A DNA stretch of 64,000 nucleotides from assembly GCA_028689665.1 (NCBI GenBank), contig JAQVCR010000001.1, forward strand, positions 1 through 64,000, written 5' to 3'. Below are positions 5,942 to 64,000 of the stretch, one piece after another. Both the position numbers and the translations under genes were made by a program. The notes under the pieces are model-generated. The model had not been told where the DNA came from. It ran no database searches and saw only the letters and a program-made list of their open reading frames with translations. Numbering within the stretch: the stretch's first letter is position 1; every line of letters begins with the position of its first letter. This DNA is from Muribaculaceae bacterium. GTDB taxonomy: Bacteria; Bacteroidota; Bacteroidia; Bacteroidales; Muribaculaceae.

Positions 5942-7240
5942 TTATTTTTTACGATTATCAATCACTCTTACTGCTTTGCCTTCCGAGCGACTTAGCGTAT
6001 GAGGCTCGGCAAGTTTAATGACAGCACTAATACCAAGAGTGCTTTGCACACTTTGCGCAATTCTTTTCTTAAGATTTTCAATTTCACGAATTTCTGTAGT
6101 CCAGAATTTATCGGCAATCTCCACCTTAATTTCTAATGTGTCAAGATTATTCTTTCGGTCGACTGTAAGCACATAATTTGGAGTAGTCTCGTATATATCC
6201 ATTAGCACCGACTCAACCTGTGAAGGGAATACATTTACGCCGCGAATAATAAGCATATCATCGCTACGTCCTAATATAGTCCCCATTCTGACAAGTGTAC
6301 GCCCACACTCGCACTTTTCTATATTTAGAGTACATAGATCTCGTGTGCGGTAGCGAAGAAGTGGCATAGCTTCTTTAGTCAATGTGGTGAATACCAATTC
6401 GCCCACCTCTCCATAAGGAAGCACATCTCCGGTTTCCGGATTAATAATTTCGGGGACAAAATGATCTTCATGTATATGACTACCATTCTGACATTCACAT
6501 TCCATTGCCACACCCGGACCTATAACTTCGCTTAGCCCATATATATTAAAAGCTTTTATTCCAAGAATCTCTTGAATATGCCGGCGTAGCTCCTCACTCC
6601 ATGGTTCTGCACCACACACAGCACGTTTTAGCTTAATTTTATCTTTCACCCCATTTTCCTCAATACTCTCGGCAAGATATGCAAGATAAGATGGTGTACA
6701 AGCAATTGCCGTAGAGCCGAAATCCATCATTAGTTGTAGCTGTTTTTTAGTGTTACCGGTAGAAATAGGGATAACCGATGCGCCGACTTTCTCTACCCCG
6801 TAATGTATTCCCAATCCACCGGTAAATAAGCCATAACCATAAGCCACTTGCATAATATCACGATTAGTGATACCTGCCATGGTAAGCGAGCGAGCCACTA
6901 CCTCACTCCACATTTCAAGGTCGTTTTTAGTACAGCCTACGACAGTCGGTTTACCCGTCGTTCCACTCGAAGCATGCAACCTCACGACTTCACTTTGCGG
7001 CACTGCAAATAGCCCGAACGGATAATTATCTCGAAGATCTTTCTTCGTTGTGAAAGGTAGCTCGTTAAGTTGGCTTATATCCTTAATATCGTTAGGATTA
7101 ATACCTTTCTGGTCAAATAGATTCTTATAAAAAGGAACATTATGATAGATTCTTTTCACCATCTCCGAAAGGCGACGCGATTGTAGCTTCACTAGTTCCT
7201 CTCTATCAATACATTCAATATCTTGTCTCCAGTATTTCAT
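5942..7240 (-). CDS. paaK: Phenylacetate-CoA ligase (PaaK-like, AMP-forming)
   Basis: 432-residue acyl-adenylate-forming enzyme that couples arylacetate, CoA and ATP, or works with IorAB in an energy-conserving direction. Seen are the phosphate loop SSGTTGKP (91-98), the adenine-binding YGLSEVIGPG, LRYRTRD before the hinge and LGRSDDMLIIRGVNVFPSQ. Cysteines and histidines cluster in MECECQNGSHIHEDH and again in EKCECGRT, a pattern that could hold a metal. Length is normal for the family. It lies 9 nt after iorB. Arylacetates such as phenylacetate or indoleacetate are the expected substrates; exact specificity is open. Confidence 0.9.
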   Translation of the reverse strand: MKYWRQDIECIDREELVKLQSRRLSEMVKRIYHNVPFYKNLFDQKGINPNDIKDISQLNELPFTTKKDLRDNYPFGLFAVPQSEVVRLHASSGTTGKPTVVGCTKNDLEMWSEVVARSLTMAGITNRDIMQVAYGYGLFTGGLGIHYGVEKVGASVIPISTGNTKKQLQLMMDFGSTAIACTPSYLAYLAESIEENGVKDKIKLKRAVCGAEPWSEELRRHIQEILGIKAFNIYGLSEVIGPGVAMECECQNGSHIHEDHFVPEIINPETGDVLPYGEVGELVFTTLTKEAMPLLRYRTRDLCTLNIEKCECGRTLVRMGTILGRSDDMLIIRGVNVFPSQVESVLMDIYETTPNYVLTVDRKNNLDTLEIKVEIADKFWTTEIREIENLKKRIAQSVQSTLGISAVIKLAEPHTLSRSEGKAVRVIDNRKK

Positions 7241-7249
7241 TGTATAATA

Positions 7250-7819
7250 TTATTTAGTGGCATCTACACCAATGGCAAATGCTTTAAGATTCATTTCAAT
7301 TATATTCTCGCCTTTCGATTTAAACATCTCACGGATAGCCTCAATAAATCGTTGCTCAGGAATATCAGTAAATCTAGACATAGCACCGAGTATCACCACA
7401 TTGCTTGCTCTAGAGCTGCCCGCTTCTTTTGCCAGATAGGCGGCATTGACTACTTTTGCATTAAGACTATTAAGTTTTTTAATGATTAATTCTTCTTCGG
7501 GATAATTAGGAATATTCTTAAAAAAATCTCCGGCTGTTACTATTGTTCCTTCGGGCGACAAATATTCTATATATCGCAAGCTCTCTAACGGCTCTACTGC
7601 AACTATCAAATCGCACTTGCCTTTAGGTATTAAATCACTAAAAATCTCATTACTACTAATCCTCAGGTGCGACTGCACATCGCCTCCCCGCTGGCTCATT
7701 CCATGCACTTCGGCTTGCTTTACATTCAATCCTTCAAGCATTGCCGCTGTATCAATAATCGATGCGATAGTAAGGATTCCTTGTCCTCCCACACCGGCAA
7801 TTATTATATCTTTTTTCAT
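7250..7819 (-). CDS. iorB: Indolepyruvate ferredoxin oxidoreductase, beta subunit
   Basis: 189-residue gamma-type domain of 2-oxoacid:ferredoxin oxidoreductases. It opens with KDIIIAGVGGQG and carries QAEVHGMSQRGGDVQSHLR, both diagnostic of IorB. An in-frame extension reaches back to 7903 inside iorA, but the chosen ATG at 7819 places the conserved GVGGQG motif right at the N-terminus as in the family and leaves a 7-nt gap to iorA. It has one cysteine, so it carries no iron-sulfur cluster itself. Together with IorA it converts arylpyruvates to arylacetyl-CoA with CoA and ferredoxin. Confidence 0.93.
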   Translation of the reverse strand: MKKDIIIAGVGGQGILTIASIIDTAAMLEGLNVKQAEVHGMSQRGGDVQSHLRISSNEIFSDLIPKGKCDLIVAVEPLESLRYIEYLSPEGTIVTAGDFFKNIPNYPEEELIIKKLNSLNAKVVNAAYLAKEAGSSRASNVVILGAMSRFTDIPEQRFIEAIREMFKSKGENIIEMNLKAFAIGVDATK

Positions 7820-7826
7820 AATCGTC

Positions 7827-9437
7827 TTATTCTTTATTAGATTTAAGTCGTGCGGCTTCTTTTGCTTTTCGAGCAGCAGTCTGCACACACTCACGCTGAG
7901 CAATAATTACCGATACTCCGTTATATTCGATTTCTTCACGCAATATCTTTACATTATCTTCGTGATGCTTAGGTAGTGGTATGATAATCCTTATATGCTC
8001 CTTCTCCACCCCTAAAGCATTACATATCTGCACTAATTTATTTGTTCCTGCCGAGTCTTGCCCTCCGGTCATTGCGGTAGTGGAATTATCAGATATTATC
8101 AATGTCATTCTCACTTTATCATTAGCAGCATCGAGTAATCCGGTCATACCCGAGTGTGTAAAGGTAGAGTCGCCTATTATTCCTATCGCCGGGTGAAGAC
8201 CTGCTTCTGCAGCCCCTTTTGCCATAGTCAGCGATGCTCCCATGTCTACACAGGTTTTAATGGCACCGAATGGAGGCAATGCGCCCAATGTGTAGCAACC
8301 AATATCGCCAAACACATGTCGATCTTCATAGATAGATAATGCCTCATTTAGAGCGGCATAAGTATCACGATGCCCACAACCTACACATAGTGCAGGCGGT
8401 CTGCCTACTACCCAATCGTCGGTATGCAACTTTACTGAATACTCAACACCAAGCGCAACAGCTAGGGCATCGGGCGAAAGTTCGCCCATACGTGGCAATG
8501 TGCCGTCTAATCGACCTTTAATCTTATTATTTCCAAAGAATCCTCGTATCGACTCCTCATATATTGGATAGCCCTCTTCGGCAATTAGCACCTCATCACA
8601 ACCTTCAATAAATTCAGCTACAATATCGTGAGGCAACGGATATTGCGATATTTTCATCACAGCAATATCAAGATTATTTGCCACTATCACTTCCATTGCA
8701 TAATTATATGAAATTCCCATAGCCAATATTCCCTTCTTTGATTGAGATATTGGCTTTCTGAAGAATGGAGAATTAGCCGAATGCGCCTCCATCACTGCTT
8801 GCTTCTCTATTAGCAATGCATAGCGACGGCGTGCAATTGCCGGTAACAGAATCCATTTGCCGGCTTGGGTATCAAGACTTAAATCATTCGGCTCTCTTGA
8901 CGGCCGACGACTAATAACCGCACGAGAATGCGATAATCGAGTAACGATGCGTATCATCACCGGCACTTGAATTTCCTCTGAATAATCAAGAGCATATATC
9001 ACAGCATCATAAGCCTCTTGTTGAGTTGCCGGCTCGATAAGTGGGAGCATTGCAAAGCGAGCATAGTAACGAGTATCTTGCTCGTTCTGCGAAGAGTGCA
9101 TCGAAGGATCGTCTGCAACAACCACAACAAGCCCTCCTTTTACGCCTGTCATGGCCGAGTTCATAAAAGCATCGGCGGCGACATTCAGTCCCACATGCTT
9201 CATACACACAATGCTGCGTTTCCCCGCATACGACATACCAAGAGCCGCCTCATAGGCTGTCTTTTCATTTGCAGCCCACGAACATCTTATTTTACGTTCT
9301 TTGGTTTCCGGCGAATTTTGTATAAATTCTGTAATCTCGGTGGATGGAGTGCCGGGATAAGCATAGACGCCCGAAATACCGGCGTCGATTGCTCCGCATG
9401 CAATAGCTTCAGCACCTAGTAACAAATCATTTTTCAT
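7827..9437 (-). CDS. iorA: Indolepyruvate ferredoxin oxidoreductase, alpha subunit, short form
   Basis: 536 residues, cytoplasmic, thiamine-diphosphate enzyme for oxidative decarboxylation of arylpyruvates. The N-terminal pyrimidine-binding domain begins LLLGAEAIACGAIDAG and holds YPGTPSTEI. The TPP domain has GDS at 422-424 and DN at 450-451. Cysteines C351, C354 (CVGC), C381 (GDIGC) and C472 are spaced like the proximal-cluster ligands of 2-oxoacid oxidoreductase beta subunits. The protein ends about 15 residues after ECVQTAARK. Archaeal IorA (about 600-650 residues) continues with a two-cluster ferredoxin domain at this point, which is absent here. First gene of the operon. Confidence 0.93.
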   Translation of the reverse strand: MKNDLLLGAEAIACGAIDAGISGVYAYPGTPSTEITEFIQNSPETKERKIRCSWAANEKTAYEAALGMSYAGKRSIVCMKHVGLNVAADAFMNSAMTGVKGGLVVVVADDPSMHSSQNEQDTRYYARFAMLPLIEPATQQEAYDAVIYALDYSEEIQVPVMIRIVTRLSHSRAVISRRPSREPNDLSLDTQAGKWILLPAIARRRYALLIEKQAVMEAHSANSPFFRKPISQSKKGILAMGISYNYAMEVIVANNLDIAVMKISQYPLPHDIVAEFIEGCDEVLIAEEGYPIYEESIRGFFGNNKIKGRLDGTLPRMGELSPDALAVALGVEYSVKLHTDDWVVGRPPALCVGCGHRDTYAALNEALSIYEDRHVFGDIGCYTLGALPPFGAIKTCVDMGASLTMAKGAAEAGLHPAIGIIGDSTFTHSGMTGLLDAANDKVRMTLIISDNSTTAMTGGQDSAGTNKLVQICNALGVEKEHIRIIIPLPKHHEDNVKILREEIEYNGVSVIIAQRECVQTAARKAKEAARLKSNKE

Positions 9438-12369: not shown

Positions 12370-12402
12370 TTGCGAGAGTTCAGTTTTTATTATGTAACTT
12401 TG
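12370..12402 (+). promoter_or_regulatory. Promoter of the btuB operon
   Basis: TTG at 12370-12372 and TAACTTTG at 12395-12402 form a -33/-7 pair with a spacer of about 20 nt. Transcription would begin near 12409, just before the first conserved bases of the cobalamin riboswitch, so promoter and riboswitch support each other. Confidence 0.7.
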
Positions 12403-12410
12403 AGGCGATT

Positions 12411-12595
12411 TTGGTGTCGCTCTTGAATGTTCTGCTTCTTGAGCGGTGAAAAGGGAATCAGGTGAAAATCCTGAACAGATCCGCTGCTGTAAATTCCTCG
12501 ATGTCTCTAAAATTAATTTATCCACTGCAACAACTTTGCGGGAAGGAAATCTTAGAGGGAATAAGTCAGAAGACCTGCCAGAATTTTATTGTTAC
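12411..12595 (+). promoter_or_regulatory. Cobalamin (AdoCbl) riboswitch
   Basis: The leader carries the standard B12-riboswitch core in order: GGTG near the 5' end, AAGGGAATCAGGTGAAAATC (12450-12469), a CCGCTGCTGTAA segment (12481-12492) and the B12 box AGTCAGAAGACCTGCC (12564-12579). It is placed between the promoter and btuB. About 120 nt separate it from the start codon; no T-tracted terminator is evident there, so control by ribosome access is more likely than transcription termination. It should switch the operon off when cobalamin is plentiful. Confidence 0.95.
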
Positions 12596-12717
12596 AAAGC
12601 TTTCGCGAAATAAGGCTTGAGACTTCAATATATTCACGCTAGCAATTATGAGTGATATATCTTAATATTTCTCCCCTTCTTTCCTTTTGCTTTCGATGTT
12701 TTTAATTTTTTAATTTA

Positions 12718-14754
12718 ATGGCAAGAGGTCGCTTCTTATTTTTTTTAATCATTTTGTGTTCGTTTTCATTAACGGCACAATCTAAGCTCGACTCTATTCA
12801 ACACCTTGATGAGGTAAAAATAGTAGCGAGCAAAAGACCTTATGCTACTGTTATCCCGGCGCAGACTCTTCAAGGAAAGGCTTTAGAAAGTCTAAACTCT
12901 CACTCGGTTGCCGATGCAATTCGCTATTTTTCAGGGGTGCAACTTAAAGATTATGGTGGTGTTGGTGGTGTGAAGACTATCGACATTCGCAGTATGGGTT
13001 CTAATCACATGGGCGTATTCTATGATGGTATTCAGCTTGGAAATGCTCAAAATGGGCAAATAGATTTAGGAAAATTCTCTCTCGATAATATTGAAGGAAT
13101 TTCGCTATATAATGGACAGAAAAGCGATATATTCCAATCGGCTAAAGATTTTGGCTCGGCTGGAACGATATATCTTAATACTCGTCGGCCTAGATTTGAG
13201 GGTAATAAAAAGCATAATTTACGTGCAATATTTCGCACCGGCTCATTTGGACTTATAAACCCATCGTTGCTATGGGAATATAAATTATCCGATAACGTAA
13301 ATCTATCCACAAGTATTGAATATACGTCGGCCACAGGGAAATATAAATTCAGATATAAGAAAAATTTCTCCGATGGCACTCTGGCATGGGACACTACGGC
13401 GACAAGGCTCAATGGCGACATTTATGCTTTACGAGCCGAAATTGGTGTGTTTGGACAGATCAATAATGGACAATGGAATATTAAAGCCTATTATTATGAT
13501 TCTGAAAAAGGGATACCCGGCGCAATAGTAAATAATGTGTGGAAAAGCGCACAACGACAATGGGACCGAAATTTCTTTGCACAGGGCTCGTTCAGAAAAA
13601 AATTCTCAAAAGTCTACGATTTTAAGATAAATGCCAAGTATGCTCGCGATTATATGCGCTACAACAATCCCGACACAACGCTAATGTATATCGACAATAA
13701 GTTTTGGCAACAAGAATTGTATATCTCGGCTGTGAATAAATTTAATATCCTGCCTTCGTGGGAAGCGAATATTGCAATCGACTACCAATGGAATTATCTC
13801 GATGCGACATTAAGCCAATTTGCCTACCCTACTCGCAACACTATTCTAATGGCGGCCGCCACTGCCTATCAATGGAATGGGCTGAAGGTACAGGCAAGCG
13901 TGCTAGGGAGCTTTATCAACGACCATAGCAGCACCGAAAATTCGTCCGGTCAACGGGTTGAGAAGAATCAAACCAATAATTATTTCACTCCGGCTCTATT
14001 TTTATCCTATCAGCCATTCAGACTCTACGATTTCTCTTTGCGCACATTCTATAAACGCATATTCCGTATGCCTACTTTCAACGACCTCTTTTACACCGAT
14101 ATGGGTAACGCCTCGTTACGTCCGGAATATGCAACACAATATAATATTGGCGCATATTATAGTATATCGCTATCAGAGTCGATAATAGAAAATTTCAAAA
14201 TCACTGCCGATGCTTATTATAATCTTGTCGATGATAAGATTATTGCAGTACCTAAAGGGACAGGGCAATATCGCTGGATGATGATGAATATTGGCAAAGT
14301 AAAAATTAAAGGTATCGACGTTACTGCGTCGGCTCGTTTCAAACTTCCCTGCTCTGTTCTTCTTAATGCCAACTTAAATTACACCTATCAGCAGGCACTC
14401 GACTACACCGACCAAGATGATAATGGCGATGGTGGCAGCTATAAAGGTGTGATTGCATATATCCCCCGACATAGTGGTTCGCTTATTATTGGAGGGCAAT
14501 ATAAAAATTGGGAATTAAATTACAGCTTTATATATGTTGGCGAAAGGTATCTATCGTCGGCAAACATAATTGAGAATCGAGAGCAACCATGGTACACTCA
14601 CGACATTTCGGGAGCTTACAGCTTCAGAATTAAAGATTTACAATTAAGGCTATCACTTGAGGTTAACAATCTGTTTAATCAGCAATATGATGTAATTCGC
14701 AACTATCCAATGCCGGGGCGTAACTATAAAGCAATACTCAAAATTGATATTTAA
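12718..14754 (+). CDS. btuB: TonB-dependent vitamin B12 receptor
   Basis: 678-residue outer-membrane receptor for cobalamins. The signal peptide ends at about residue 21 (SLTAQ). The plug lies at about 30-150, with LDEVKIVASKRP near the TonB box region, IDIRSMGSNHMGVFYDGIQL and GISLYNGQ. The barrel follows, with the typical late receptor motif DLQLRLSLEVNNLFNQQYDV. Unlike the receptor at 220-2595 it has no carboxypeptidase-like domain. The B12 assignment rests on the riboswitch directly upstream and on the BtuG-like gene directly downstream, since the sequence alone only shows a receptor of the BtuB/siderophore class. Confidence 0.92.
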   Translation: MARGRFLFFLIILCSFSLTAQSKLDSIQHLDEVKIVASKRPYATVIPAQTLQGKALESLNSHSVADAIRYFSGVQLKDYGGVGGVKTIDIRSMGSNHMGVFYDGIQLGNAQNGQIDLGKFSLDNIEGISLYNGQKSDIFQSAKDFGSAGTIYLNTRRPRFEGNKKHNLRAIFRTGSFGLINPSLLWEYKLSDNVNLSTSIEYTSATGKYKFRYKKNFSDGTLAWDTTATRLNGDIYALRAEIGVFGQINNGQWNIKAYYYDSEKGIPGAIVNNVWKSAQRQWDRNFFAQGSFRKKFSKVYDFKINAKYARDYMRYNNPDTTLMYIDNKFWQQELYISAVNKFNILPSWEANIAIDYQWNYLDATLSQFAYPTRNTILMAAATAYQWNGLKVQASVLGSFINDHSSTENSSGQRVEKNQTNNYFTPALFLSYQPFRLYDFSLRTFYKRIFRMPTFNDLFYTDMGNASLRPEYATQYNIGAYYSISLSESIIENFKITADAYYNLVDDKIIAVPKGTGQYRWMMMNIGKVKIKGIDVTASARFKLPCSVLLNANLNYTYQQALDYTDQDDNGDGGSYKGVIAYIPRHSGSLIIGGQYKNWELNYSFIYVGERYLSSANIIENREQPWYTHDISGAYSFRIKDLQLRLSLEVNNLFNQQYDVIRNYPMPGRNYKAILKIDI

Positions 14755-14761
14755 AGACTCT

Positions 14762-15910
14762 ATGAGAATTATTATTAAAATATTTATTCTGTCATTATTA
14801 ATCAGTCTTTATTCGTGTAGAGAAGATGATATTATTTATATTCCGGAGAAGGTGAATGTAGCCACTCCCGAATACACTTCTATCAATGGATTCTATCTAT
14901 TAAACGAAGGAAATATGGGTATGAATAAATGCACTCTCGACTATTATGATTATGCAAAAGGTGAATACACTCGAAACATTTATGGAAATGCCAATCCTTC
15001 TATACCTAAAGAACTCGGTGATGTAGGTAATGATATTGCAATTTATGGCAGCAAAATGTATGCTGTGATAAACACTTCTAATAAAGTGGAAGTGATGAAT
15101 GCCGTCGATGCCACAAGAATAGGACAAATCGACATTCCAAATTGTCGATACATTAAATTTCATAAAGGGTTTGCCTATATCACATCTTATGCCGGACCTG
15201 TCGATATTAATAATGAACATAAACAGATAGGATATGTGGCAAAGGTAGATACTGCTACACTTGAAATTGTGGATAAATGCCTTGTAGGCTATCAACCCGA
15301 CGGAATAGAAATTGTCGACAATAGAATTTATGTCGCCAATTCGGGCGGCTATCTTGTCCCTAATTATGAAAATACTATCTCGGTTATAGATATTAATAGT
15401 TTCACTGAAATAAAGAAAGTAGAAATTGCGCTAAATCTCAGCATATTAGCAGCCGACACAAATGGATATCTTTGGATAGCGTCGCGAGGCGACTATAAAG
15501 ATGTTAACTCCCGTCTATACTGCTATGATGTAAGAAAAGAACGAATCGAGAAAAATTTTGATATTGCTGTCTCTAATATGGCTCTCGACGGCGACTCGCT
15601 TTATATTATAGGCAACCAATGGAACGAAACGACACAAAGCACGACGACAAACTATGCTATCGTTGATATTACAAAAAAAGAAATTGTCTCCACAAATTTC
15701 ATTTCCGATGGCACCGAGGCTTCAATCATTCGCCCTTATGGAATTATTATAAACCCAATTACAAAAGATATACTCCTTTCAGATGCAAAATCTTACGTTA
15801 CTCCCGGCATTCTCTATTGCTTCGACAAAAAAGGGGTAAGAAAATGGAACGTACGCACAGGCGACATTCCGGCTCACTTTGTGTTTCTTGGAAATAATAA
15901 AAACAATTGA
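14762..15910 (+). CDS. BtuG-like surface lipoprotein, YncE-type beta-propeller
   Basis: 382 residues from the ATG at 14762; an in-frame TTG at 14744 lies inside btuB and is less likely. The N-terminus is a lipoprotein signal with lipobox LYSC (C19). REDD directly after the cysteine resembles the acidic export signal that sends Bacteroidetes lipoproteins to the cell surface. The body shows repeated propeller blades (YGSKMYAVINTSNKVEVMNA, VDNRIYVANSGGY, NTISVIDINSF). BtuG of Bacteroides is a seven-bladed propeller lipoprotein that caps BtuB and binds B12 very tightly. The fold, the lipoprotein signal and the location behind btuB fit that role. Function is inferred by family and context. Confidence 0.85.
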   Translation: MRIIIKIFILSLLISLYSCREDDIIYIPEKVNVATPEYTSINGFYLLNEGNMGMNKCTLDYYDYAKGEYTRNIYGNANPSIPKELGDVGNDIAIYGSKMYAVINTSNKVEVMNAVDATRIGQIDIPNCRYIKFHKGFAYITSYAGPVDINNEHKQIGYVAKVDTATLEIVDKCLVGYQPDGIEIVDNRIYVANSGGYLVPNYENTISVIDINSFTEIKKVEIALNLSILAADTNGYLWIASRGDYKDVNSRLYCYDVRKERIEKNFDIAVSNMALDGDSLYIIGNQWNETTQSTTTNYAIVDITKKEIVSTNFISDGTEASIIRPYGIIINPITKDILLSDAKSYVTPGILYCFDKKGVRKWNVRTGDIPAHFVFLGNNKNN

Positions 15911-15912
15911 TT

Positions 15913-16995
15913 ATGAATAAATTAATACTAGCAACTATAATTGCATTTTCTGCTTTTAGCATCAAGGCTGATTCTCAATACATTTCAACTGTGTTTGAAT
16001 ACACGCCGGCTCCCGGACAATTTGTCAACCAAATACCGGAATATGCACAAGGCGATACTAAAGAAACAATGGCTCAAAAAGCCGCCGAATTGATTTGTGG
16101 CGACGAAGGGGGATTAGTTACTCTCGGTGGTTTTGGTGGCTATATCGTGTTTGGATTCGACCACACAATAACAAACATCGCCGGTGAATACGATTTCAGC
16201 GTTCGCGGCAATTGCTTCGGGAATAGCAGCGAACCGGGAATAATAATGGTAGCTAAAGACACTAATAAAGATGGACTGCCAAACGACGAGTGGTACGAAA
16301 TAGCCGGTAGTGAATACTCAAACACTCAAACTATTCATAATTACGAAATCACTTACTCGCGACCGGCAAGCGACAAAGATAATATTATATGGACTTCTAA
16401 CCAGAACACAAACGGCTATATTCCTCGTAATATTTTTAACACTCAACCATATTATCCACAATGGATTAATCAAGACAAGATTACTCTAAATGGCACAAAA
16501 CTTAGAGACAACGCTGTCCTTGTAGCCGAAATATATCAATTAAAGCCTTTCGAGTGGGGATATGCCGACAATTACCCAAACACTGACACTCAAAGTGGAA
16601 TAAAAATAGATTGGGCTGTTAAAGCCGACGGAACACCTGCCAACCTCGATGGAATAGATTTTGTGAAAGTATATACAGCTCTTAATCAAGTGTGTGGAAA
16701 TATCGGTGAGACATCGACCGAAATATCGGGGGCTGTCGACCTTCACTACTCAGGCGGCGCAGCTCTTAACCAAACAGCCGACAAAGAAATAACTATTATG
16801 AGTGCATCTGCTTCTTCCCTAATTATCAAGAATAGCGGAAACGATGCAACGGCTGGTATATACGCAATAAATGGAAGCATAATTATGCAATTAGAAATAT
16901 TATCGGGCATTTCAAATATAGACATTTCCAATCTCCAAAGCGGAATTTACATTTTAGCTACAACCAATAATAATCTAAAATTTATTAAACAATAA
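15913..16995 (+). CDS. Secreted protein of the B12 operon with T9SS-type C-terminal tail
   Basis: 360 residues from the ATG at 15913, three bases past the btuG-like stop. A cleavable signal peptide (about 1-18, ending SIKA) has no lipobox. The central domain has GGFGGYIVFGFDHTI and DTNKDGLPNDEWYEIAGSEY, a pattern known from cell-surface proteins adjacent to B12 receptors in Bacteroidetes. The last 70 residues look like a type A sorting domain (AGIYAINGSIIMQ, then LQSGIYILATTNNNLKFIKQ) but lack the usual YPNP opening. It may be a B12-binding surface protein comparable in role to BtuH, delivered by the T9SS rather than lipidated. That role is inference. Confidence 0.75.
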   Translation: MNKLILATIIAFSAFSIKADSQYISTVFEYTPAPGQFVNQIPEYAQGDTKETMAQKAAELICGDEGGLVTLGGFGGYIVFGFDHTITNIAGEYDFSVRGNCFGNSSEPGIIMVAKDTNKDGLPNDEWYEIAGSEYSNTQTIHNYEITYSRPASDKDNIIWTSNQNTNGYIPRNIFNTQPYYPQWINQDKITLNGTKLRDNAVLVAEIYQLKPFEWGYADNYPNTDTQSGIKIDWAVKADGTPANLDGIDFVKVYTALNQVCGNIGETSTEISGAVDLHYSGGAALNQTADKEITIMSASASSLIIKNSGNDATAGIYAINGSIIMQLEILSGISNIDISNLQSGIYILATTNNNLKFIKQ

Positions 16996-25959: not shown

Positions 25960-26979
25960 ATGCCAGTTAAAATTAAATATTTAGTATTTCTAATCCTCTC
26001 GTTCATTGCAAGCATTTCTGCAGTGGCACAGACCGATGCCCAATTTACTCAATATTGGGCAGTTCAGAATTACTACAATCCTGCGGCTACCGGTAATATT
26101 GATTATATTCAGATAAAAGGAGGCTCTAGAATGCAATGGGTAGGAATAACTAATGCACCATCTACATTCCTACTTACTGCCGACTCTCCTTTTAAAATAA
26201 TGGGAAAGAAAGTAGGAGCCGGTATTGTCGTGAATCAAGAAAGCATAGGGCTATATAAAACAATGAACCTCTCGGCACAGCTATCATATAAAATTAAACT
26301 CTTTGGCGGAACTCTCGGACTTGGAGTGCAACTCGGATTTATGGACGAAACATTCAAAGGCTCGGAAGTTAACATCCCCGACAGCCCTAGCAATAGCGAT
26401 GGCGATGGCGAAGATACCGCAAGCAGAGATGGCTCTACTACTAGCAGCACCGACGACGGATTACCATCGACCGATATACATGGCACCGCATTCGATGTCG
26501 GGCTGGGAGCATATTACACACACAAATATTTCTGGGCTGGAATATCGGCAACACACCTAAACCAACCGACTGTATCGCTAAACACCGAAGGAAATACCGA
26601 ACAAATCTACGAAGCACAAGTAGGTCGAACGTTTTATTTTATGGCTGGTAGCAATATTCCAATAAAAAATTCGTTATTTGAAATACAGCCGTCTGTTTTA
26701 GTTCGCAGTAACCTAAAAATTACTCAAGCCGAAATAACAGCACGACTGAGATATAAGAAATTTATTTCATTTGGTGTAGCTTATCGCACCAATGACGCAA
26801 TTTCAGCTATGATTAGCGCAGAGTATAAAAATTTCTTTTTAGGTTACAGTTATGATTACGCCACTTCAGCAATTTCAAAAGTCAGCAACGGAAGTCATGA
26901 AGTATTTGTAGGCTATAACTTAAAATTGAATTTAGGTGATAAAAACAAAAACAAACATAAGAGTATTCGTATAATGTAG
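25960..26979 (+). CDS. porP: PorP/SprF family T9SS outer-membrane protein with acidic insert
   Basis: 339 residues. Signal peptide 1-24 (SAVAQ). The family start QTDAQFTQYWAVQNYYNPAA is complete, followed by repeated barrel strands and an end FVGYNLKLNL. PorP/SprF proteins anchor T9SS rings or cell-surface adhesins at the outer membrane. Residues about 141-172 hold an inserted loop rich in Ser, Asp and Gly (SPSNSDGDGEDTASRDGSTT) that looks low-complexity and surface-exposed. It starts 11 nt after porT and stops 3 nt before gldK. Confidence 0.92.
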   Translation: MPVKIKYLVFLILSFIASISAVAQTDAQFTQYWAVQNYYNPAATGNIDYIQIKGGSRMQWVGITNAPSTFLLTADSPFKIMGKKVGAGIVVNQESIGLYKTMNLSAQLSYKIKLFGGTLGLGVQLGFMDETFKGSEVNIPDSPSNSDGDGEDTASRDGSTTSSTDDGLPSTDIHGTAFDVGLGAYYTHKYFWAGISATHLNQPTVSLNTEGNTEQIYEAQVGRTFYFMAGSNIPIKNSLFEIQPSVLVRSNLKITQAEITARLRYKKFISFGVAYRTNDAISAMISAEYKNFFLGYSYDYATSAISKVSNGSHEVFVGYNLKLNLGDKNKNKHKSIRIM

Positions 26980-26982
26980 AGT

Positions 26983-28410
26983 ATGAAGAAACTAATTATT
27001 TATATTTTTCTCGCAATGGCGGTGTCTTCTTGCATGTCGTCGAAAGGCGGTGGAGCATCTAGCAACGGTGGCGAAGTAACCGGTGTTGGCGGTGTAGCTT
27101 GGAGTGAACCCACTCCATACGGCATGGTGCTAATAGATCGTGGCTCGATGAAAGTGGGGCCAAACAAAGATGATAGTGTTAGAAATATTAAAGCCGACCC
27201 ACGTGGTATGTCGGTGGAATCTTTCTGGATGGATCAAACGGAGATAACAAACTCAAAATACAAGCAATTTGTATTATGGGTGCGCGACTCTATTATTCGT
27301 GAACGCCTTGCCGACCCTGCTTTTGGCGGAAACGAAGCTTATAAAATAGAAGAAGACAAAGAAGGAAATCCAATCAAGCCTCATCTCAATTGGAACAAAG
27401 CTATTCCTTGGCGTAATCCTAGCGAAGACGAAGCTAGAGCTATCGAAAGCGTGTATCGCACAAATCCAATAACGGGAGCTAGAGAAATCGACCCTACTCA
27501 GCTAAATTTCAGATACGAAATTTTCAATCACACAGAAGCAGCCAAGCGAAAATATCGCCTTGACGCTACTCTTCGCGAATATAATACCGACATAACGGTA
27601 AACAACACTTTACCTATTGTTTCTAAAGACACTGCATTCATCAACGATGACGGCGAAATAATTAGAGAGACTGTTACTCGCGGACTTACAGGTGATTATG
27701 ATTTCCTTAATACATATATAGTTAACGTATATCCCGACACAACCGTTTGGGTAAACGACTTCGAGAATGCTTACAACGAACCTTACGTTCGTCTATATTT
27801 CTCGCATGCCGGCTACAATGATTACCCGGTTGTTGGTGTGAGCTGGAATCAAGCTAACGCATTTGCTGCTTGGCGTACCGATTTCCTTCGCCGCTCGCTA
27901 GGAAAACAAGGAATATACATCGAGCCTTATCGCCTGCCTACCGAAGCCGAATGGGAATATGCCGCTCGCTCAGGAGCCGACAATAATATGTATCCATGGG
28001 AAGGCGACCTGCCACTAGCCGAGAAAGGGTGCTTCTATGCAAACTTTAAGCCAATGGAAGGGAACTACGTAAAAGACGGAAATCTTATAACATCAAAAGT
28101 AGGGACATACTCGCCCAACGACTTTGGATTATATGATATGGCTGGTAATGTGAGTGAATGGACTTCGACAGCATATACCGAAAGCATAAACAAGCTCACA
28201 AGCGACTTAAACCCTGAATATCGCTATAACGCTGCCAAAGAAGACCCCTACAAAATGACTAGAAAAATAGTTAGAGGAGGCTCGTGGAAAGATGTTGCCA
28301 AAGATATAAGAAGCGACTTGAGAATGTGGGAATACCAAAACGAGCAACGCAGCTACATAGGATTTAGATGCGTACGCACTCAGATTGGGTTTGCTAAAGG
28401 TAAAAAATAA
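26983..28410 (+). CDS. gldK: T9SS ring lipoprotein GldK/PorK
   Basis: 475 residues. Lipoprotein signal with C17 in AVSSC. The body is a formylglycine-generating-enzyme (sulfatase-modifying factor) fold: YGMVLIDRGSMKVGPN, SFWMDQTEITNSKYKQFV, YPVVGVSWNQANAFAAWR, RLPTEAEWEYAARSG, YDMAGNVSEWT and VRGGSWKD, ending IGFRCVR. GldK with GldN forms the large periplasmic ring under the outer membrane. The catalytic role of the fold is not used in this family. Middle residues 100-260 hold a long insert typical of GldK. Confidence 0.95.
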   Translation: MKKLIIYIFLAMAVSSCMSSKGGGASSNGGEVTGVGGVAWSEPTPYGMVLIDRGSMKVGPNKDDSVRNIKADPRGMSVESFWMDQTEITNSKYKQFVLWVRDSIIRERLADPAFGGNEAYKIEEDKEGNPIKPHLNWNKAIPWRNPSEDEARAIESVYRTNPITGAREIDPTQLNFRYEIFNHTEAAKRKYRLDATLREYNTDITVNNTLPIVSKDTAFINDDGEIIRETVTRGLTGDYDFLNTYIVNVYPDTTVWVNDFENAYNEPYVRLYFSHAGYNDYPVVGVSWNQANAFAAWRTDFLRRSLGKQGIYIEPYRLPTEAEWEYAARSGADNNMYPWEGDLPLAEKGCFYANFKPMEGNYVKDGNLITSKVGTYSPNDFGLYDMAGNVSEWTSTAYTESINKLTSDLNPEYRYNAAKEDPYKMTRKIVRGGSWKDVAKDIRSDLRMWEYQNEQRSYIGFRCVRTQIGFAKGKK

Positions 28411-28439: not shown

Positions 28440-29519
28440 ATGGGTAAATACAAAAGATATAAGAATATCATCGAGAAATTTCTCTCGGGCGAAAAAGGTC
28501 AACGTTTTTTCAACTTTGCCTATAGTATTGGTGCTGCTATCGTAATTTGGGGAGCGCTATTTAAAATTCTTCACTTGCCGGGTGGTAACACATTGCTTGC
28601 TGTAGGTATGGGCACTGAGGTGCTTATGTTCCTACTCACAGCTTTCGACAAACCTAGCAAAGATTATAAATGGGAAGAAGTTTTTCCTGTTCTCAGCACA
28701 AAAGATCCCGAAGATCGTCCCGACTTTGCCGGCGGTAATGGCTCGGTAATAATCGGTGGCGGCGGCAATGGAAATGGAGGCACCGTAATAATCGGAGGAA
28801 ATAACGGAGGCTCACAAGGCTCACAAGGCTCACAAGGCTCACAAGGCGAAGTAAACATACAAGGCAATATCACAGGCGCACAAGCTCGCTCGGCAGTGGG
28901 AATACCTGCAGGAATCGAGCTGTCAGAAGCCGACACAACCAGCTTGACCGAAAGCATAGCTAAGATGGCAGCAGCCAGCGACCAGCTATCTCGTATGGCT
29001 GAATTGACCGATGCCACACAGCAATATCTATCACAGATTTCGGGTATAGCCGAACAGATGGATAAGCTGCGCAACACCACAGAATCGCTAAATCAAGTTT
29101 CCGACGTATTGCTTGGCAGCTATCGCGCCATCACCGAAAATAGTGAAAACATCACAAGCAGCTCCACCGGATATGTAGAACAAATGAGCGACCTGAACCG
29201 AAACATCGGAGGATTGAACACAATATACGAAATACAATTAAAGAGCATCTCATCACAGCTCGACAGCATCGACCGTGTAAACCGAGGATTGAAAGATATT
29301 CGCGATATGTACGAAAAGTCGGCTAACGAGAGTGCTAGATATTGCGAAGAAACCGAAAAGATGGCTCGCTATATGCAACAGCTAAACAGCGTGTACGACA
29401 AGATGCTACGCGCAATGACAGTAAATATGTATCGTCCCGGAATGCCCGATATGGGAAACGTTGACGACATCTTAAAAGATGCCGAAAAAAGGAAAAACGA
29501 TATTAACACTCAAGAATAA
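28440..29519 (+). CDS. gldL: T9SS inner-membrane motor protein GldL/PorL with glycine-rich linker
   Basis: 359 residues. Two N-terminal membrane helices (about 22-42 and 51-69) carry FKILHLPGGN between them, and E60 in GTEVLMF stands where GldL family members have the proton-path glutamate of helix 2. GldL5-GldM2 works as a proton-driven rotary motor. A glycine-rich linker (98-136) follows, including four exact Gly-Ser-Gln repeats. The C-terminal part (about 150-355) is mostly helical and coiled-coil (LTESIAKMAAASDQLSRMAE...). The gene is 29 nt after gldK. Confidence 0.95.
   Translation: MGKYKRYKNIIEKFLSGEKGQRFFNFAYSIGAAIVIWGALFKILHLPGGNTLLAVGMGTEVLMFLLTAFDKPSKDYKWEEVFPVLSTKDPEDRPDFAGGNGSVIIGGGGNGNGGTVIIGGNNGGSQGSQGSQGSQGEVNIQGNITGAQARSAVGIPAGIELSEADTTSLTESIAKMAAASDQLSRMAELTDATQQYLSQISGIAEQMDKLRNTTESLNQVSDVLLGSYRAITENSENITSSSTGYVEQMSDLNRNIGGLNTIYEIQLKSISSQLDSIDRVNRGLKDIRDMYEKSANESARYCEETEKMARYMQQLNSVYDKMLRAMTVNMYRPGMPDMGNVDDILKDAEKRKNDINTQE
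28809..28844 (+). repeat. Four exact 9-bp tandem repeats inside gldL
   Basis: GGCTCACAA is repeated four times without change and adds Gly-Ser-Gln four times to the glycine-rich linker. The unit is a multiple of three, so slippage would alter the linker length and keep the frame. Confidence 0.95.
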
Positions 29520-29534
29520 TTCAATAAACGATAA

Positions 29535-31106
29535 ATGGCAAGTTCTCAAACTATAGCAAGAATGTCTCCACGCCAGAAGATGATAAACCTTATGTATATC
29601 GTCTTAACGGCAATGCTTGCCCTTAATGTGTCGAGCGACGTACTTAACGGCTTTAACCAAGTGGAAGGCGGACTTGCTCGCACAAACAAAAACATGTCGG
29701 AGCGTAACGACGCTATATATAATCAACTCGCTGCTTTTAATACTAAGAACCCCGAAAAAGGTGGTACTTGGTTCGATAAAGCAACTGAATTACGCATCAA
29801 AACAGCCAAAATATATCAATTTATAGACACGCTTAAAACAGCTATCATAATAAATGCCGACGGCAACGATGCTGATATCAAAAACATCAAAAATCAAGAC
29901 AACCTAGAAGCCGCTTCTGTAATCATGCTTGCTCCTAACACAGGACTGGGACACGAATTAAAGACACGTATCGACAACTATCGCTCGTATGTGTCTACAA
30001 TAATGACAAATCCTATTAAGAAGGCAAACATTCAGAGCGCACTATCGACAAACCCTCACACCGTTAAAAACAGTATCGGAAACAAATCGTGGGAAGAAGG
30101 ACTGTTTGAAAATATGCCGGTTGTGGCTGCAGTAACTCTTCTAACTAAGATTCAAAACGACCTGAGATATGCCGAAGGCGAAGCTCTTAATACCCTGCTC
30201 AATAATATTGACGCCGGCGACGTGAGAGTGAATGAAGTGAACGCTTTTGTAATTCCGGCATCGAGAAATGTGATGAGAGGTAGCAAATATAGCGCAAATA
30301 TCGTGCTTGCTGCTGTCGACACCACGGCTCGACCTACCGTATACATTAACGGAACAAAACTAAATAATGATCGTGGAATCTACGAGGTAGTAGCAGGCAA
30401 AACAGGAGTATTCGATTACTCAGGCTACCTTGAAGTGCCGCGTGGCGATGGAACAATGAGCCGACACGACTTCAAATCATCATACACTGTGATTGAGCCT
30501 ATGGCGACAGTATCGGCAACTATGATGAATGTGCTATATGCGGGCATTAACAACCCCATTTCTATTGCAGTGCCGGGAATACCACCCACATCAATCTCAG
30601 CATCGATGACCAACGGAACATTGACTCGTAATGGGGATATATGGATAGCTAAGCCATCTAAAGTAGGTGCCGAAGCAGTAGTATCGGTTACTGCAACTAT
30701 CGACGGACATTCACAGACTGTTGCAACGACAAACTTCAGAGTAAGGAAATTGCCAGATCCAACTCCATATATACCATTTGCCGACGGCAAAGGTAATCAA
30801 GACCGATATAAAGGTTCTAAGCCATTTGCTAAGACATTACTTCTGCAAGCTGCCGGAATAGAAGCCGCTATCGACGACGATTTACTCAACGTTAGCTATC
30901 GAGTATTAAGTTTTGAAACTGTATTCTTCGACTCAATGGGTAATGCAATTCCCGAAGTATCACAAGGTTCACAATTCTCGCAACGCCAAAAAGACAGTTT
31001 CCGTCGCCTTTCGAGAGGCAAACGATTCATTATTTCTCGCGTAAGAGCAATAGGTCCCGATGGAATAGAACGAACAATATCTCCAATGGAGGTAATTGTA
31101 AATTAA
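29535..31106 (+). CDS. gldM: T9SS motor shaft protein GldM/PorM
   Basis: 523 residues. One N-terminal membrane helix (about 17-36, LMYIVLTAMLALNVSSDVLN) is preceded by the conserved SPRQKMINLMY. A helical D1 domain and three beta domains follow, with the family stretches AFVIPASRNVMRGSKYSANI, YVEVVAG-like turns, and RVRKLPDPTPYIPFADGKG before the last domain. It spans the periplasm from the GldL motor to the GldK-GldN ring. It starts 15 nt after gldL. Confidence 0.95.
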   Translation: MASSQTIARMSPRQKMINLMYIVLTAMLALNVSSDVLNGFNQVEGGLARTNKNMSERNDAIYNQLAAFNTKNPEKGGTWFDKATELRIKTAKIYQFIDTLKTAIIINADGNDADIKNIKNQDNLEAASVIMLAPNTGLGHELKTRIDNYRSYVSTIMTNPIKKANIQSALSTNPHTVKNSIGNKSWEEGLFENMPVVAAVTLLTKIQNDLRYAEGEALNTLLNNIDAGDVRVNEVNAFVIPASRNVMRGSKYSANIVLAAVDTTARPTVYINGTKLNNDRGIYEVVAGKTGVFDYSGYLEVPRGDGTMSRHDFKSSYTVIEPMATVSATMMNVLYAGINNPISIAVPGIPPTSISASMTNGTLTRNGDIWIAKPSKVGAEAVVSVTATIDGHSQTVATTNFRVRKLPDPTPYIPFADGKGNQDRYKGSKPFAKTLLLQAAGIEAAIDDDLLNVSYRVLSFETVFFDSMGNAIPEVSQGSQFSQRQKDSFRRLSRGKRFIISRVRAIGPDGIERTISPMEVIVN

Positions 31107-31139: not shown

Positions 31140-32267
31140 ATGAAGATTTTAAAAATAATATCGCTCGCCACCTTGATTTTCACCATTGGGTGTGCTAATG
31201 CGTTTTCACAAGAGAGTGGAAGCGTAGTGAGAAAACGCAATGCCGACGACAACAAGAAAGAGACTTCTGCTCCCGGTGTAAGCCAAAGAATGCAGACATT
31301 CTATGAACATACTCCAATCTCAGATGCCGACTTAACATGGATGAGAGTAATATATCGTTCTCTTGACTTAACGAAAGAGAAAAATATGGCACTCTACTAC
31401 CCCGAAGAGCCTACGGAGAATCAGGAAAATATGTTTCGCATTATTATGCGACTATTAGCAAATAACCAAATTGGAGCCTACGAATATCTTGACGGTCGTG
31501 AAATTTTCACCGACCAATATAAAATTAAGGTAAAAGATATGCTCGATCGCTTCCATATTCTATACTCGGAGGCTAAAGGCAGCTCGGAGAAAAATCCTAA
31601 ATTTACAATTGAAGAAAGTGATGTTCCGGCTAATGAGGTATTAAGCTACTATGTACTCGAACGCTGGGAATTTGACCGCATCAATAATCGTATGAAACAA
31701 CGTATCGAAGCCCTATGCCCTGTGCTGCATCGCTCAGGCGACTTTGGTGGGGAAGCAATAAAATACCCAATGTTTTGGATTAAATTCGACGCATTGCGCC
31801 CTTCTCTTTCTCAGCAATATATTTTCACCGACAACGATAACAACCTAGCACGTTACAGCTACGACGACTTCTTCAACCTAGCCATGTATGAAGGCGAAAT
31901 ATACAAGACTCGCAATCTTAAAAATATGTCGATGATGCAAATGTATCCCGACCCCGACGATATGAAACATGCTCAAGACAGCATCGAAAAACGTCTTCGC
32001 AATTACGATAAAAACCTCTGGGTACCTACTCGTGAAGAGCTTGCAGCCATTGCCGAAGCTCAAGCAGCAGCAGCCGACAGCACTGAAATAAGCACTCGTG
32101 ATAACGAACCGGCAAAAGAAGTAAAATCATCTCGCGGTAAATCGTCTCGCGGTAAAAAAGAAACTTCAACCGAAAAGACAAAAAAGAAGAAACAACCAAA
32201 AGTAAAAGAATCGAAACCAAAAAATTCAAGCAGCTCAGCAAATCGCTCAGTAAGACGACGCAAATAG
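31140..32267 (+). CDS. gldN: T9SS ring protein GldN/PorN with long basic tail
   Basis: 375 residues. A signal peptide ends near residue 24 (ANAFS). The core has DLTWMRVIYRSLDLTKEKN, YYPEEPTENQENMFRIIMR, GAYEYLDGREIFTDQYKI and KYPMFWIKFDALRPSLSQQY, all diagnostic of GldN. It forms the periplasmic ring with GldK. After residue 320 there is a tail of about 50 residues rich in Lys, Ser and Arg (KSSRGKSSRGKKETS, ending SVRRRK), which I would not expect in the compact GldN core. Last gene of the cluster, followed by a terminator. Confidence 0.94.
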   Translation: MKILKIISLATLIFTIGCANAFSQESGSVVRKRNADDNKKETSAPGVSQRMQTFYEHTPISDADLTWMRVIYRSLDLTKEKNMALYYPEEPTENQENMFRIIMRLLANNQIGAYEYLDGREIFTDQYKIKVKDMLDRFHILYSEAKGSSEKNPKFTIEESDVPANEVLSYYVLERWEFDRINNRMKQRIEALCPVLHRSGDFGGEAIKYPMFWIKFDALRPSLSQQYIFTDNDNNLARYSYDDFFNLAMYEGEIYKTRNLKNMSMMQMYPDPDDMKHAQDSIEKRLRNYDKNLWVPTREELAAIAEAQAAAADSTEISTRDNEPAKEVKSSRGKSSRGKKETSTEKTKKKKQPKVKESKPKNSSSSANRSVRRRK

Positions 32268-61691: not shown

Positions 61692-64000
61692 TTATTTAAT
61701 TATAAGTTTTTGTGAGTAGTTTCCATTCTCAGTAATAATTCTTGCAATATATACCCCCTTTGCAACGCTGCTAACATCGAGCGTAGCGCTACCTCCATTT
61801 ACCTCTACATTACGACGATACACAATTGCGCCATCGAGTGAATATATTTCGAGCTGGGCATTATCCGAATTTGAGCTTATCGACAATTGTCCATCAACAA
61901 CAGGGTTTGGATATAAATTAGCCTGATTTACCTTGCCTAAATCTATACATTCCACCGAACTATGATTGTTGTAATATGCCTCTAGTTTATGAATAGTAAT
62001 TGTCTTTTCGCCCTTGTCGACTCCCGATGTCTGCAAATAGAATGAAAGTCCTGCCATTGTGATAGGATAAATTGATAAATCATTCAAATCGCCAAGTAGG
62101 CTCATATCGAAATCTATGGTATAGCGCACACCGGCTTCAAATGCTTTTTCACCATTCTTATACTGAACCGGACTTATCTTTGTCATCAACGCCGAGCGCA
62201 AATCACTCTGAACATAGTTTATAGGCAATGTTGGTGTAAATTCAAGTGTTATCTTATCAGGAAGTCCAAAGAACGGCAGGGTATTTGTCATCTTTATGTT
62301 TGAACCTCTTGCTGCGGTAAAATTAAAGCTAATCACTCCGTCTTTATCTATTGCAAGATTAGATGCCCCTGTGCCTTTAAGCGACCAGTTGCTCCACTCT
62401 TGTCCCATTGTTGCATCTTCTGGAATTTGTACTCTCACTGTTACCTCTTCAGCAAAACTTCCAAGCGAGCATTTCAATGTAGTCTCGCCATTTTTAAGAC
62501 CTCTTAGCACTCCTTTTTCAATACTTGCAATAGTAGGATCGACAAGCTCCCAATTCATATCGGCTGAATCGTAAAGATATGTATTACGACCTACTGTGGA
62601 AACGACCTCGACAGGATAAGCTCTTGCTCCATCAATTACTATTAAAGGCTTAATACGTAATGCCATCTCCGACGACACTGTTGTGAATGGTTTAGTTACT
62701 TTTATGCCTTTATAATCGGCTGTAATTGTTCCATACGATGGAGTAAAGTGAGCCTTCACCATACTTCCTTCGCCTTTACCTACATTGTCGGTGCATGTAA
62801 TGTTTACGCCTTCTACATTGTCGCTGACTAATTCGCCATACTTATTATAGCCTAAAATACGAGGTGTGTATACTGCCCCTGCAGGGATAGTTATATTAAA
62901 ATTGTCAAATTCTATTCTTGATATTTCTTGGCTGTCGGGTGCTGTAGAATAAAGAAACCAACTAGTAGATACCGATCTGGGAGTACCTTCTGTCGTCTTA
63001 TTTACTACTGCGCCATCGACCATCATTTGCGCCGAACCGCCTGCATCGAAATTAGCCACAGCCCAGCAACCCATACTCTTCAATATCTCGCACATAGGAC
63101 CTGTGGTACAGCCCTTTGAATATCCATAATCGCCCGTCGACATATCAATCACTATGATATAAAGTTTCTTGCGATCCTTGCTCATTCCGTATGCACAACG
63201 CGAATATACAGTAGCACAATAGCCATCTGTTACATTTGCTTCGGTCAATTCGCCATCTTCCATTACTAGGTTATTACCCTCGACCATATTCTCGATTAAT
63301 GGCTTGACTCCGGTTTTATTATCAGTCCACGCATGATTTATGGTTATCTTATCACCCGGCTGAAGTTTCTGCAAATAAGGCTTGTAACTTCCCGAACCGG
63401 TAAGACAGAAATCATAATCTCCAACAGTTTCACTAGCTTTATCAAACGATACAGCCATTACAGTTGCAGTCATATCTTTATTTACTGCCCACTCTTGCCC
63501 CTCATCAACATTTAGATATATATTGTCGTTGGTAGCATTTGTAAGCATTGCACGATCTTTTCCGTATTCTGATGTAAATACAGCTAGCTCTCCCTCATGG
63601 CATATTTTATTAAACTGTATGATTTCGAGATTTTTATCCCACTTTTCGCATTTTGCTTCGCCATACCAGCTCATTGCACCCACCCATAAGTTCTTATCCT
63701 TATCGACAGCAAGACATCCACGTCCACCATAAGCAATATCGTTATGTGCATTGGTCTCTGTAAGAATTTTGCCATTAAGCACATTAGCACCAAAGTTAGT
63801 GCCAAGCATATAAGCCCAACCTGCGCCATGCCCGGTAACAACCCAGAAACTCGCATTTGCACCTGCAATAGGCTTCTTTCCCTCTTCTTTGTGGCGAATG
63901 TAAGCATCAGCAAGAAGTTCCTGCTTTCCTATCGTATTAAATGGCTGTGTTGTTTCAATCTTATTGTAAGGATTAGTAAGATCCATCACGATAGTATAAA
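61692..64000 (-). CDS. Phosphodiester glycosidase family protein with T9SS sorting domain, 5' end outside window
   Basis: At least 765 residues; the frame stays open to the right edge, so the true N-terminus and signal peptide are missing. The first part (about 1-350) has GANASFWVV, GGRGCLAVDKDKNLWVGAM, RKKLYIIVIDMSTG and NFDAGGSAQMM with SVSTSWF, the pattern of the phosphodiester glycosidase (NAGPA/DUF2233) domain that removes sugar-phosphate caps. Beta domains, one Big2-like, run from about 355 to 680. The end is a complete type A sorting domain with LYPNPVVDGQL, GAIVYRR, VAKGVYIARI and the basic end QKLIIK, so the enzyme should be exported by the T9SS encoded in this window. Confidence 0.88.
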   Translation of the reverse strand, partial: YTIVMDLTNPYNKIETTQPFNTIGKQELLADAYIRHKEEGKKPIAGANASFWVVTGHGAGWAYMLGTNFGANVLNGKILTETNAHNDIAYGGRGCLAVDKDKNLWVGAMSWYGEAKCEKWDKNLEIIQFNKICHEGELAVFTSEYGKDRAMLTNATNDNIYLNVDEGQEWAVNKDMTATVMAVSFDKASETVGDYDFCLTGSGSYKPYLQKLQPGDKITINHAWTDNKTGVKPLIENMVEGNNLVMEDGELTEANVTDGYCATVYSRCAYGMSKDRKKLYIIVIDMSTGDYGYSKGCTTGPMCEILKSMGCWAVANFDAGGSAQMMVDGAVVNKTTEGTPRSVSTSWFLYSTAPDSQEISRIEFDNFNITIPAGAVYTPRILGYNKYGELVSDNVEGVNITCTDNVGKGEGSMVKAHFTPSYGTITADYKGIKVTKPFTTVSSEMALRIKPLIVIDGARAYPVEVVSTVGRNTYLYDSADMNWELVDPTIASIEKGVLRGLKNGETTLKCSLGSFAEEVTVRVQIPEDATMGQEWSNWSLKGTGASNLAIDKDGVISFNFTAARGSNIKMTNTLPFFGLPDKITLEFTPTLPINYVQSDLRSALMTKISPVQYKNGEKAFEAGVRYTIDFDMSLLGDLNDLSIYPITMAGLSFYLQTSGVDKGEKTITIHKLEAYYNNHSSVECIDLGKVNQANLYPNPVVDGQLSISSNSDNAQLEIYSLDGAIVYRRNVEVNGGSATLDVSSVAKGVYIARIITENGNYSQKLIIK

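Follow-up and report, generated by a model that had tools for sequence, protein, structure and literature searches.

A probable BtuH-type cobamide-capture protein with a predicted type IX secretion sorting domain in a B12 operon of a Muribaculaceae bacterium

The stretch analysed here (the window) comprises positions 1–64,000 of the forward strand of contig JAQVCR010000001.1 from a Muribaculaceae bacterium (assembly GCA_028689665.1). It carries a tightly packed set of genes in the order btuB–btuG–btuH, with a cobalamin riboswitch 5′ of the set, and, further along, genes of the type IX secretion system (T9SS; Table 1). The btuB-like product scores 94 bits against the B12-receptor model TIGR01779, under the equivalog cut-off. 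The BtuG-like product has kept its lipobox (LISLYSC-REDD, read from the sequence), and the product of the third gene, 360 residues long, begins with a plain Sec signal (MNKLILATIIAFSAFSIKA followed by DSQ); both had been noted in the original prediction made from this DNA. The third protein lacks the N-terminal lipobox by which Bacteroides-type lipoproteins are recognised, because its first cysteine is residue 62. In our view it is very probably a cobamide-capture protein of the BtuH type, with the T9SS as its route across the outer membrane.

Residues 19–280 match the H-domain of BtuG1 (8blw, 8blw_B; E 1.8e-69), and the core also matches BtuH2 (7biz, 7biz_A; E 1.3e-56). In an AlphaFold2 (AF2) model of the whole protein, built with 40 aligned sequences, the mean predicted local distance difference test score (pLDDT) was 90.6; the core lay mostly above 90 and the signal region (residues 1–20) at 56–62. 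Superposition of the modelled core gave Z 36.9 with 8blw (root-mean-square deviation 1.5 Å, 259 residues, 48% identity) and Z 35.6 with 7biz (1.9 Å over 259 residues), and Foldseek likewise related it to solved BtuH structures. By sequence and predicted structure, the core of the third protein is a BtuH domain. No further BtuH was found in the same genome, where two weak matches span only the C-terminal domain.

Conservation of the residues that contact B12, as listed for BtuH2 in 7biz (PMC8941943), was assessed over 95 aligned proteins. The contacts Q333, N399 and F401 are kept and L578 is replaced by isoleucine, the alignment near Y510/W511 being uncertain. Two changes weigh against the interpretation given above: H476, a histidine in 84 of the 95 proteins, and W577, a tryptophan in 78 of them, are both asparagine here, and affinity or the preferred cobamide may therefore differ. 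These same two asparagines could be taken to mean that the protein is exported by the T9SS but has lost B12 binding and taken another ligand. We regard this as highly improbable, given the three retained contacts, the riboswitch operon shared with btuB and btuG, and the presence of just this one BtuH domain in the genome; the core likely binds B12, to judge from the contacts that are conserved.

The C-terminal segment had been likened to a type A sorting domain. A profile search returned a match to TIGR04183 over residues 304–360 (27.3 bits, E 2.7e-6), which passes the curated cut-off of 23. A hidden Markov model (HMM) of C-terminal domains (CTDs) built from 29 others of the same genome, this BtuH being left out, gave the tail 33.7 bits, as against 7.3 for the best of 200 shuffles of the tail; together the shuffles and the curated cut-off exclude chance similarity. 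In the AF2 model, residues 293–360 form a separate seven-strand domain, beyond a linker in which residues 283–290 have a pLDDT under 50, and the model excludes that the tail is an integral part of the core, one of the two outcomes that had been named as speaking against the idea; the other, a lack of any match to sorting-domain profiles, does not apply either. The YPNP opening is absent, as had been pointed out: the profile match begins at position 13, and many other CTDs of this genome lack the opening too. The tail retains GIYIL and the terminal KFIKQ, which correspond to the stretch of motifs D and E that a review reports to be indispensable (PMC10202324); in HBP35, according to the same review, secretion needs no more of the CTD than its final 22 residues, which include these two motifs. 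The linker contains one Thr–Ala pair, at 288–289, that matches the PorU consensus, a loose one.

Modelled alone, the tail was most similar to solved T9SS CTDs, which took the top ranks in VIA-align, with Z values of 9.2 with NucA, 9.2 with mirolase, 9.0 with FspA, 8.5 with RemA and 8.1 with PorZ. Two observations tell against a sorting function. Unrelated immunoglobulin-like (Ig-like) domains reach Z 7–8, within about 1 Z of the CTDs (VIA-align), and the match to PF18962, at 25.8 bits, falls narrowly under the Pfam cut-off of 27, a shortfall of 1.2 bits. Because unrelated Ig-like domains give similar Z values, the fold alone is no proof of a sorting domain. Nor was Foldseek taken as proof, since its best hits to the tail model (E about 0.01) were mixed Ig-like folds among which CTDs were not singled out. 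The predicted fold adds weight to the sequence evidence but is no substitute for it. On another reading, the domain would be no more than an accessory module with the common Ig-like fold, its likeness to a sorting domain notwithstanding, and BtuH would stay in the periplasm. Against this stand the TIGR04183 score above its cut-off, the 33.7 bits with the own-genome CTD model and the conserved GIYIL...KFIKQ end. Taking sequence and model together, we conclude that the last 70 residues are a predicted separate T9SS type A sorting domain.

Comparison with relatives bears on the same question. A scan of GTDB species genomes yielded 80 loci encoding BtuH. A lipobox is present in 28, and 27 of these proteins end no more than 15 residues past the core; the other one (L072) has a 33-residue tail with a nil score against the CTD model. 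The remaining 52 have a plain signal, and in every one of them a tail follows the core, its length ranging from 42 to 551 residues. Lipobox and tail are thus near-perfectly exclusive (Fisher p about 2e-20, kinship ignored). In L065 and L082 a loose lipobox pattern catches a cysteine a few residues before the core; these were classed as plain, since the residues after the cysteine are not rich in Ser/Asp/Glu. The lipobox of L095 and L115 was caught by a second pattern, not the first.

The 52 tails, assigned partly by eye, comprise 21 that are type A-like, five short ‘YDLxGxxV’-like, 12 short ‘RDGQ’ (L081, L083, L089, L097, L099, L100, L102, L105, L107, L109, L116, L119) and 14 dockerin-like. 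A TIGR04183 scan of 26 proteins, namely P0001, all those with type A-like tails and four with YDL tails, gave matches at E up to 0.01 in 14, and PF00404 matched all 14 dockerin-like tails. The latter (L106, L121, L123–L125, L127, L129–L136) come from Muribaculaceae and Prevotellaceae metagenome assemblies. That relatives bear other tags at the same place, and only where the lipobox is missing, argues further against a periplasmic BtuH with an accessory Ig-like domain, which we judge to be very unlikely. A BtuH with a C-terminal tag in place of a lipobox is widespread and not unique to this genome. A tree of the core domain, in which many deep forks are weak, implies a minimum of 11 switches between anchor types, as against 44 in shuffles; anchor types therefore cluster by lineage, yet appear to have changed several times.

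SprA is encoded in 49 of 50 tested genomes with a tailed BtuH, the exception being a metagenome assembly, and in all seven genomes of another set, which came from a single family, giving 56 of 57 over both sets, which have one genome in common (L087 and L162). The 13 SprA-negative genomes with a lipobox BtuH all have one without a tail (13/13). The association of tail and SprA gave Fisher p values, kinship ignored, of 7e-5 for both sets and of 0.05 and 0.02 for each singly. A point on the other side is that SprA is also found in 32 of 45 distinct cases among genomes with a lipobox BtuH, so that having a T9SS does not fix which route is taken.

In the majority of the genomes examined, BtuH ends in the kind of tag that the genome uses in bulk. 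Among genomes whose BtuH has a type A tail, TIGR04183 matches number 52 in G000, 90 in G414 and at least 150 in G411, with only seven in G395 (L058). The pattern ‘KxxRDGQLxIxxxGxxYNxxGxxx’ occurs in 47 to 88 copies per genome in eight genomes with an RDGQ-tailed BtuH, and in zero copies in four other genomes tested. In eight genomes with a dockerin-tailed BtuH, dockerin matches number from 49 to at least 151 and those to TIGR04183 from 4 to 12, and SprA is present in all eight; four tested genomes in which BtuH has a type A tail yielded no dockerin. Among the readable copies, the RDGQ tag or EF-hand pair stands at the very C-terminal end of proteins that lack a lipobox, bar two doubtful pattern hits. 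Dockerin modules have been reported from rumen Bacteroidetes with their role undefined (PMC7480376). With 0–6 cohesins per genome against 49–151 dockerins, a classical cellulosome is an unlikely explanation for the dockerin tails. The correlation suggests that the RDGQ tag and the EF-hand pair are lineage-specific sorting tags. We tentatively propose, as something a little short of an even chance, that BtuH is a natural reporter of the surface-sorting tag of its lineage, and that in SprA-positive Bacteroidales with few type A CTDs the dockerin-like domain and the short RDGQ tail are unrecognised T9SS, or T9SS-coupled, sorting signals.

A lipobox BtuG beside a plain-signal, tailed BtuH recurs in 15 complete btuB–btuG–btuH loci. 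Two further split loci (L065, L100) lie at contig edges, bringing the total to at least 17; at L083 and L119 a cysteine resembling a lipobox was recognised by eye. Elsewhere BtuG and BtuH both carry short C-terminal tags (L063, L077), or, at dockerin loci such as L134, the adjoining DUF5074 protein has a plain signal and a dockerin. The division of the B12 operon between lipoprotein and T9SS export had been predicted as unusual. The sequences bear out the division, but it is repeated at too many loci to be called so, except by comparison with those Bacteroides proteins that have been studied to date; in T9SS-positive Bacteroidales the split is a common form, with an all-tag form alongside it. 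At L078 a tailed BtuH is directly followed, on its 3′ side, by another BtuG-like protein (7032–8804), which combines a plain signal with a type A-like CTD.

In several tailed relatives, domains of further B12-binding families (DUF4465, DUF5074) are joined to BtuH, which counts for the proposed capture protein exported by the T9SS. BtuH is fused to DUF4465, the BtuJ-type B12-binding family, in L075 (4389–6923), L090 (2–2260) and L128 (710–2563), the last of which also bears a full type A CTD. A single protein at L121 (5914–8505) has BtuH, DUF5074 (BtuG-like) and dockerin domains, and in a 751-residue protein at L145 a BtuH domain is combined with a plain signal, a BtuG-like start and a short tail of the YDLNGRVV type.

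The T9SS genes expected in the same window are there, namely those for GldKLMN and a PorP-family protein. SprA is encoded on another contig of the genome and PorV just outside the window; in the region L209 (contig C50, 65127–79529), just past the window, there are two PorU-type sortases close to one another, the second followed by PorV. TIGR04183 picks out 52 sites in the genome at an E value of 0.001 or less, and almost all of them score above the cut-off. Within the window, a phosphodiester glycosidase (NAGPA) protein (61692–63989, minus strand) ends in a textbook type A CTD, including LYPNP.

Table 1. Features of the B12 operon, of its third protein and of the T9SS gene cluster in the window.
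Feature	Position	Strand	Basis
Cobalamin riboswitch, upstream of operon	12395..12596	+	Rfam RF00174, 104.8 bits, E 3.5e-25, full-length
btuB-like TonB-dependent transporter	12718..14754	+	PF00593/PF07715 (barrel + plug)
btuG-like beta-propeller lipoprotein	14762..15910	+	PF16819 DUF5074, 50.7 bits, above cut-off
btuH homologue with predicted T9SS type A sorting domain, 360 aa	15913..16995	+	
Plain Sec signal peptide, residues 1–19	15913..15969	+	From sequence; no lipobox cysteine
BtuH B12-binding domain (predicted), residues ~20–280	15970..16752	+	8blw/7biz homology, Z 36.9 and 35.6
Flexible linker, residues 281–291	16753..16785	+	pLDDT under 50 at 283–290; site scan
T9SS type A sorting domain (predicted), residues 292–360	16786..16992	+	TIGR04183, own-genome HMM, CTD folds
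T9SS PorP/SprF-family protein	25960..26979	+	TIGR03519
T9SS ring lipoprotein PorK/GldK	26983..28410	+	TIGR03525
T9SS motor PorL/GldL	28440..29519	+	TIGR03513
T9SS motor PorM/GldM	29535..31106	+	TIGR03517
T9SS ring subunit PorN/GldN	31140..32267	+	TIGR03523

The route that we infer, from T9SS transport and tag cleavage to final location, B12 binding and hand-over, would begin when cobamide shortage turns on the riboswitch-controlled operon. BtuB would go into the outer membrane and BtuG would be displayed as its lipid-anchored lid, while BtuH would pass the inner membrane by Sec and then fold. Recognised through its C-terminal domain, BtuH would leave through SprA with PorV, and a PorU sortase would cut off the tag within the 281–291 linker. 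The cut protein may then be attached to polysaccharide at the cell surface, or else set free as a diffusible carrier of B12 that would hand its cobamide to BtuBG.

B12 capture in Bacteroidota has so far been described as a matter of lipoproteins. The open-access literature on BtuH, BtuG and DUF4465 contains no mention of the T9SS that we could find, the proteins being described as lipoproteins or as having signal peptides, and searches of it that combined BtuB or vitamin B12 with T9SS returned unrelated papers only. If BtuH is delivered by the T9SS, one operon would use two independent export routes and BtuG and BtuH need not sit together; as a polysaccharide-bound or released protein, BtuH could in the latter case be a shared B12 carrier. 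The exchange of a lipid anchor for a C-terminal tag within one homologous family also offers a clean comparative test of T9SS sorting signals, and it points to two candidate tags, neither of which is called a T9SS signal by the family models used.

The closest known counterparts are BtuH2 (BT1956) and BtuH1 (BT1488) of Bacteroides thetaiotaomicron (7biz; PMC8941943), which share the B12-binding domain and the type of riboswitch-controlled btuB/btuG operon; unlike them, the protein described here has a plain signal peptide and a predicted C-terminal sorting domain. The solved structure closest to the core is the H-domain of BtuG1/BtuGH (BT1490; 8blw; PMC10404256), which is fused to a lipid-anchored BtuG propeller, whereas here it forms an independent protein with a predicted export tag of its own. 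With T9SS type A cargo (TIGR04183/PF18962; RgpB, PorZ, mirolase, NucA) the protein shares a Sec signal, a C-terminal seven-strand Ig-like domain and a genome that encodes the T9SS, but the YPNP motif is missing and the passenger, neither an enzyme nor an adhesin, is predicted to bind a vitamin. Export by both routes from one gene cluster is already known for cellulases (PMC5831590): in Ca. Paraporphyromonas polyenzymogenes a single cluster is likewise divided between the lipoprotein and T9SS routes, for cellulases in that organism and, as we propose, for a vitamin uptake operon in this one.
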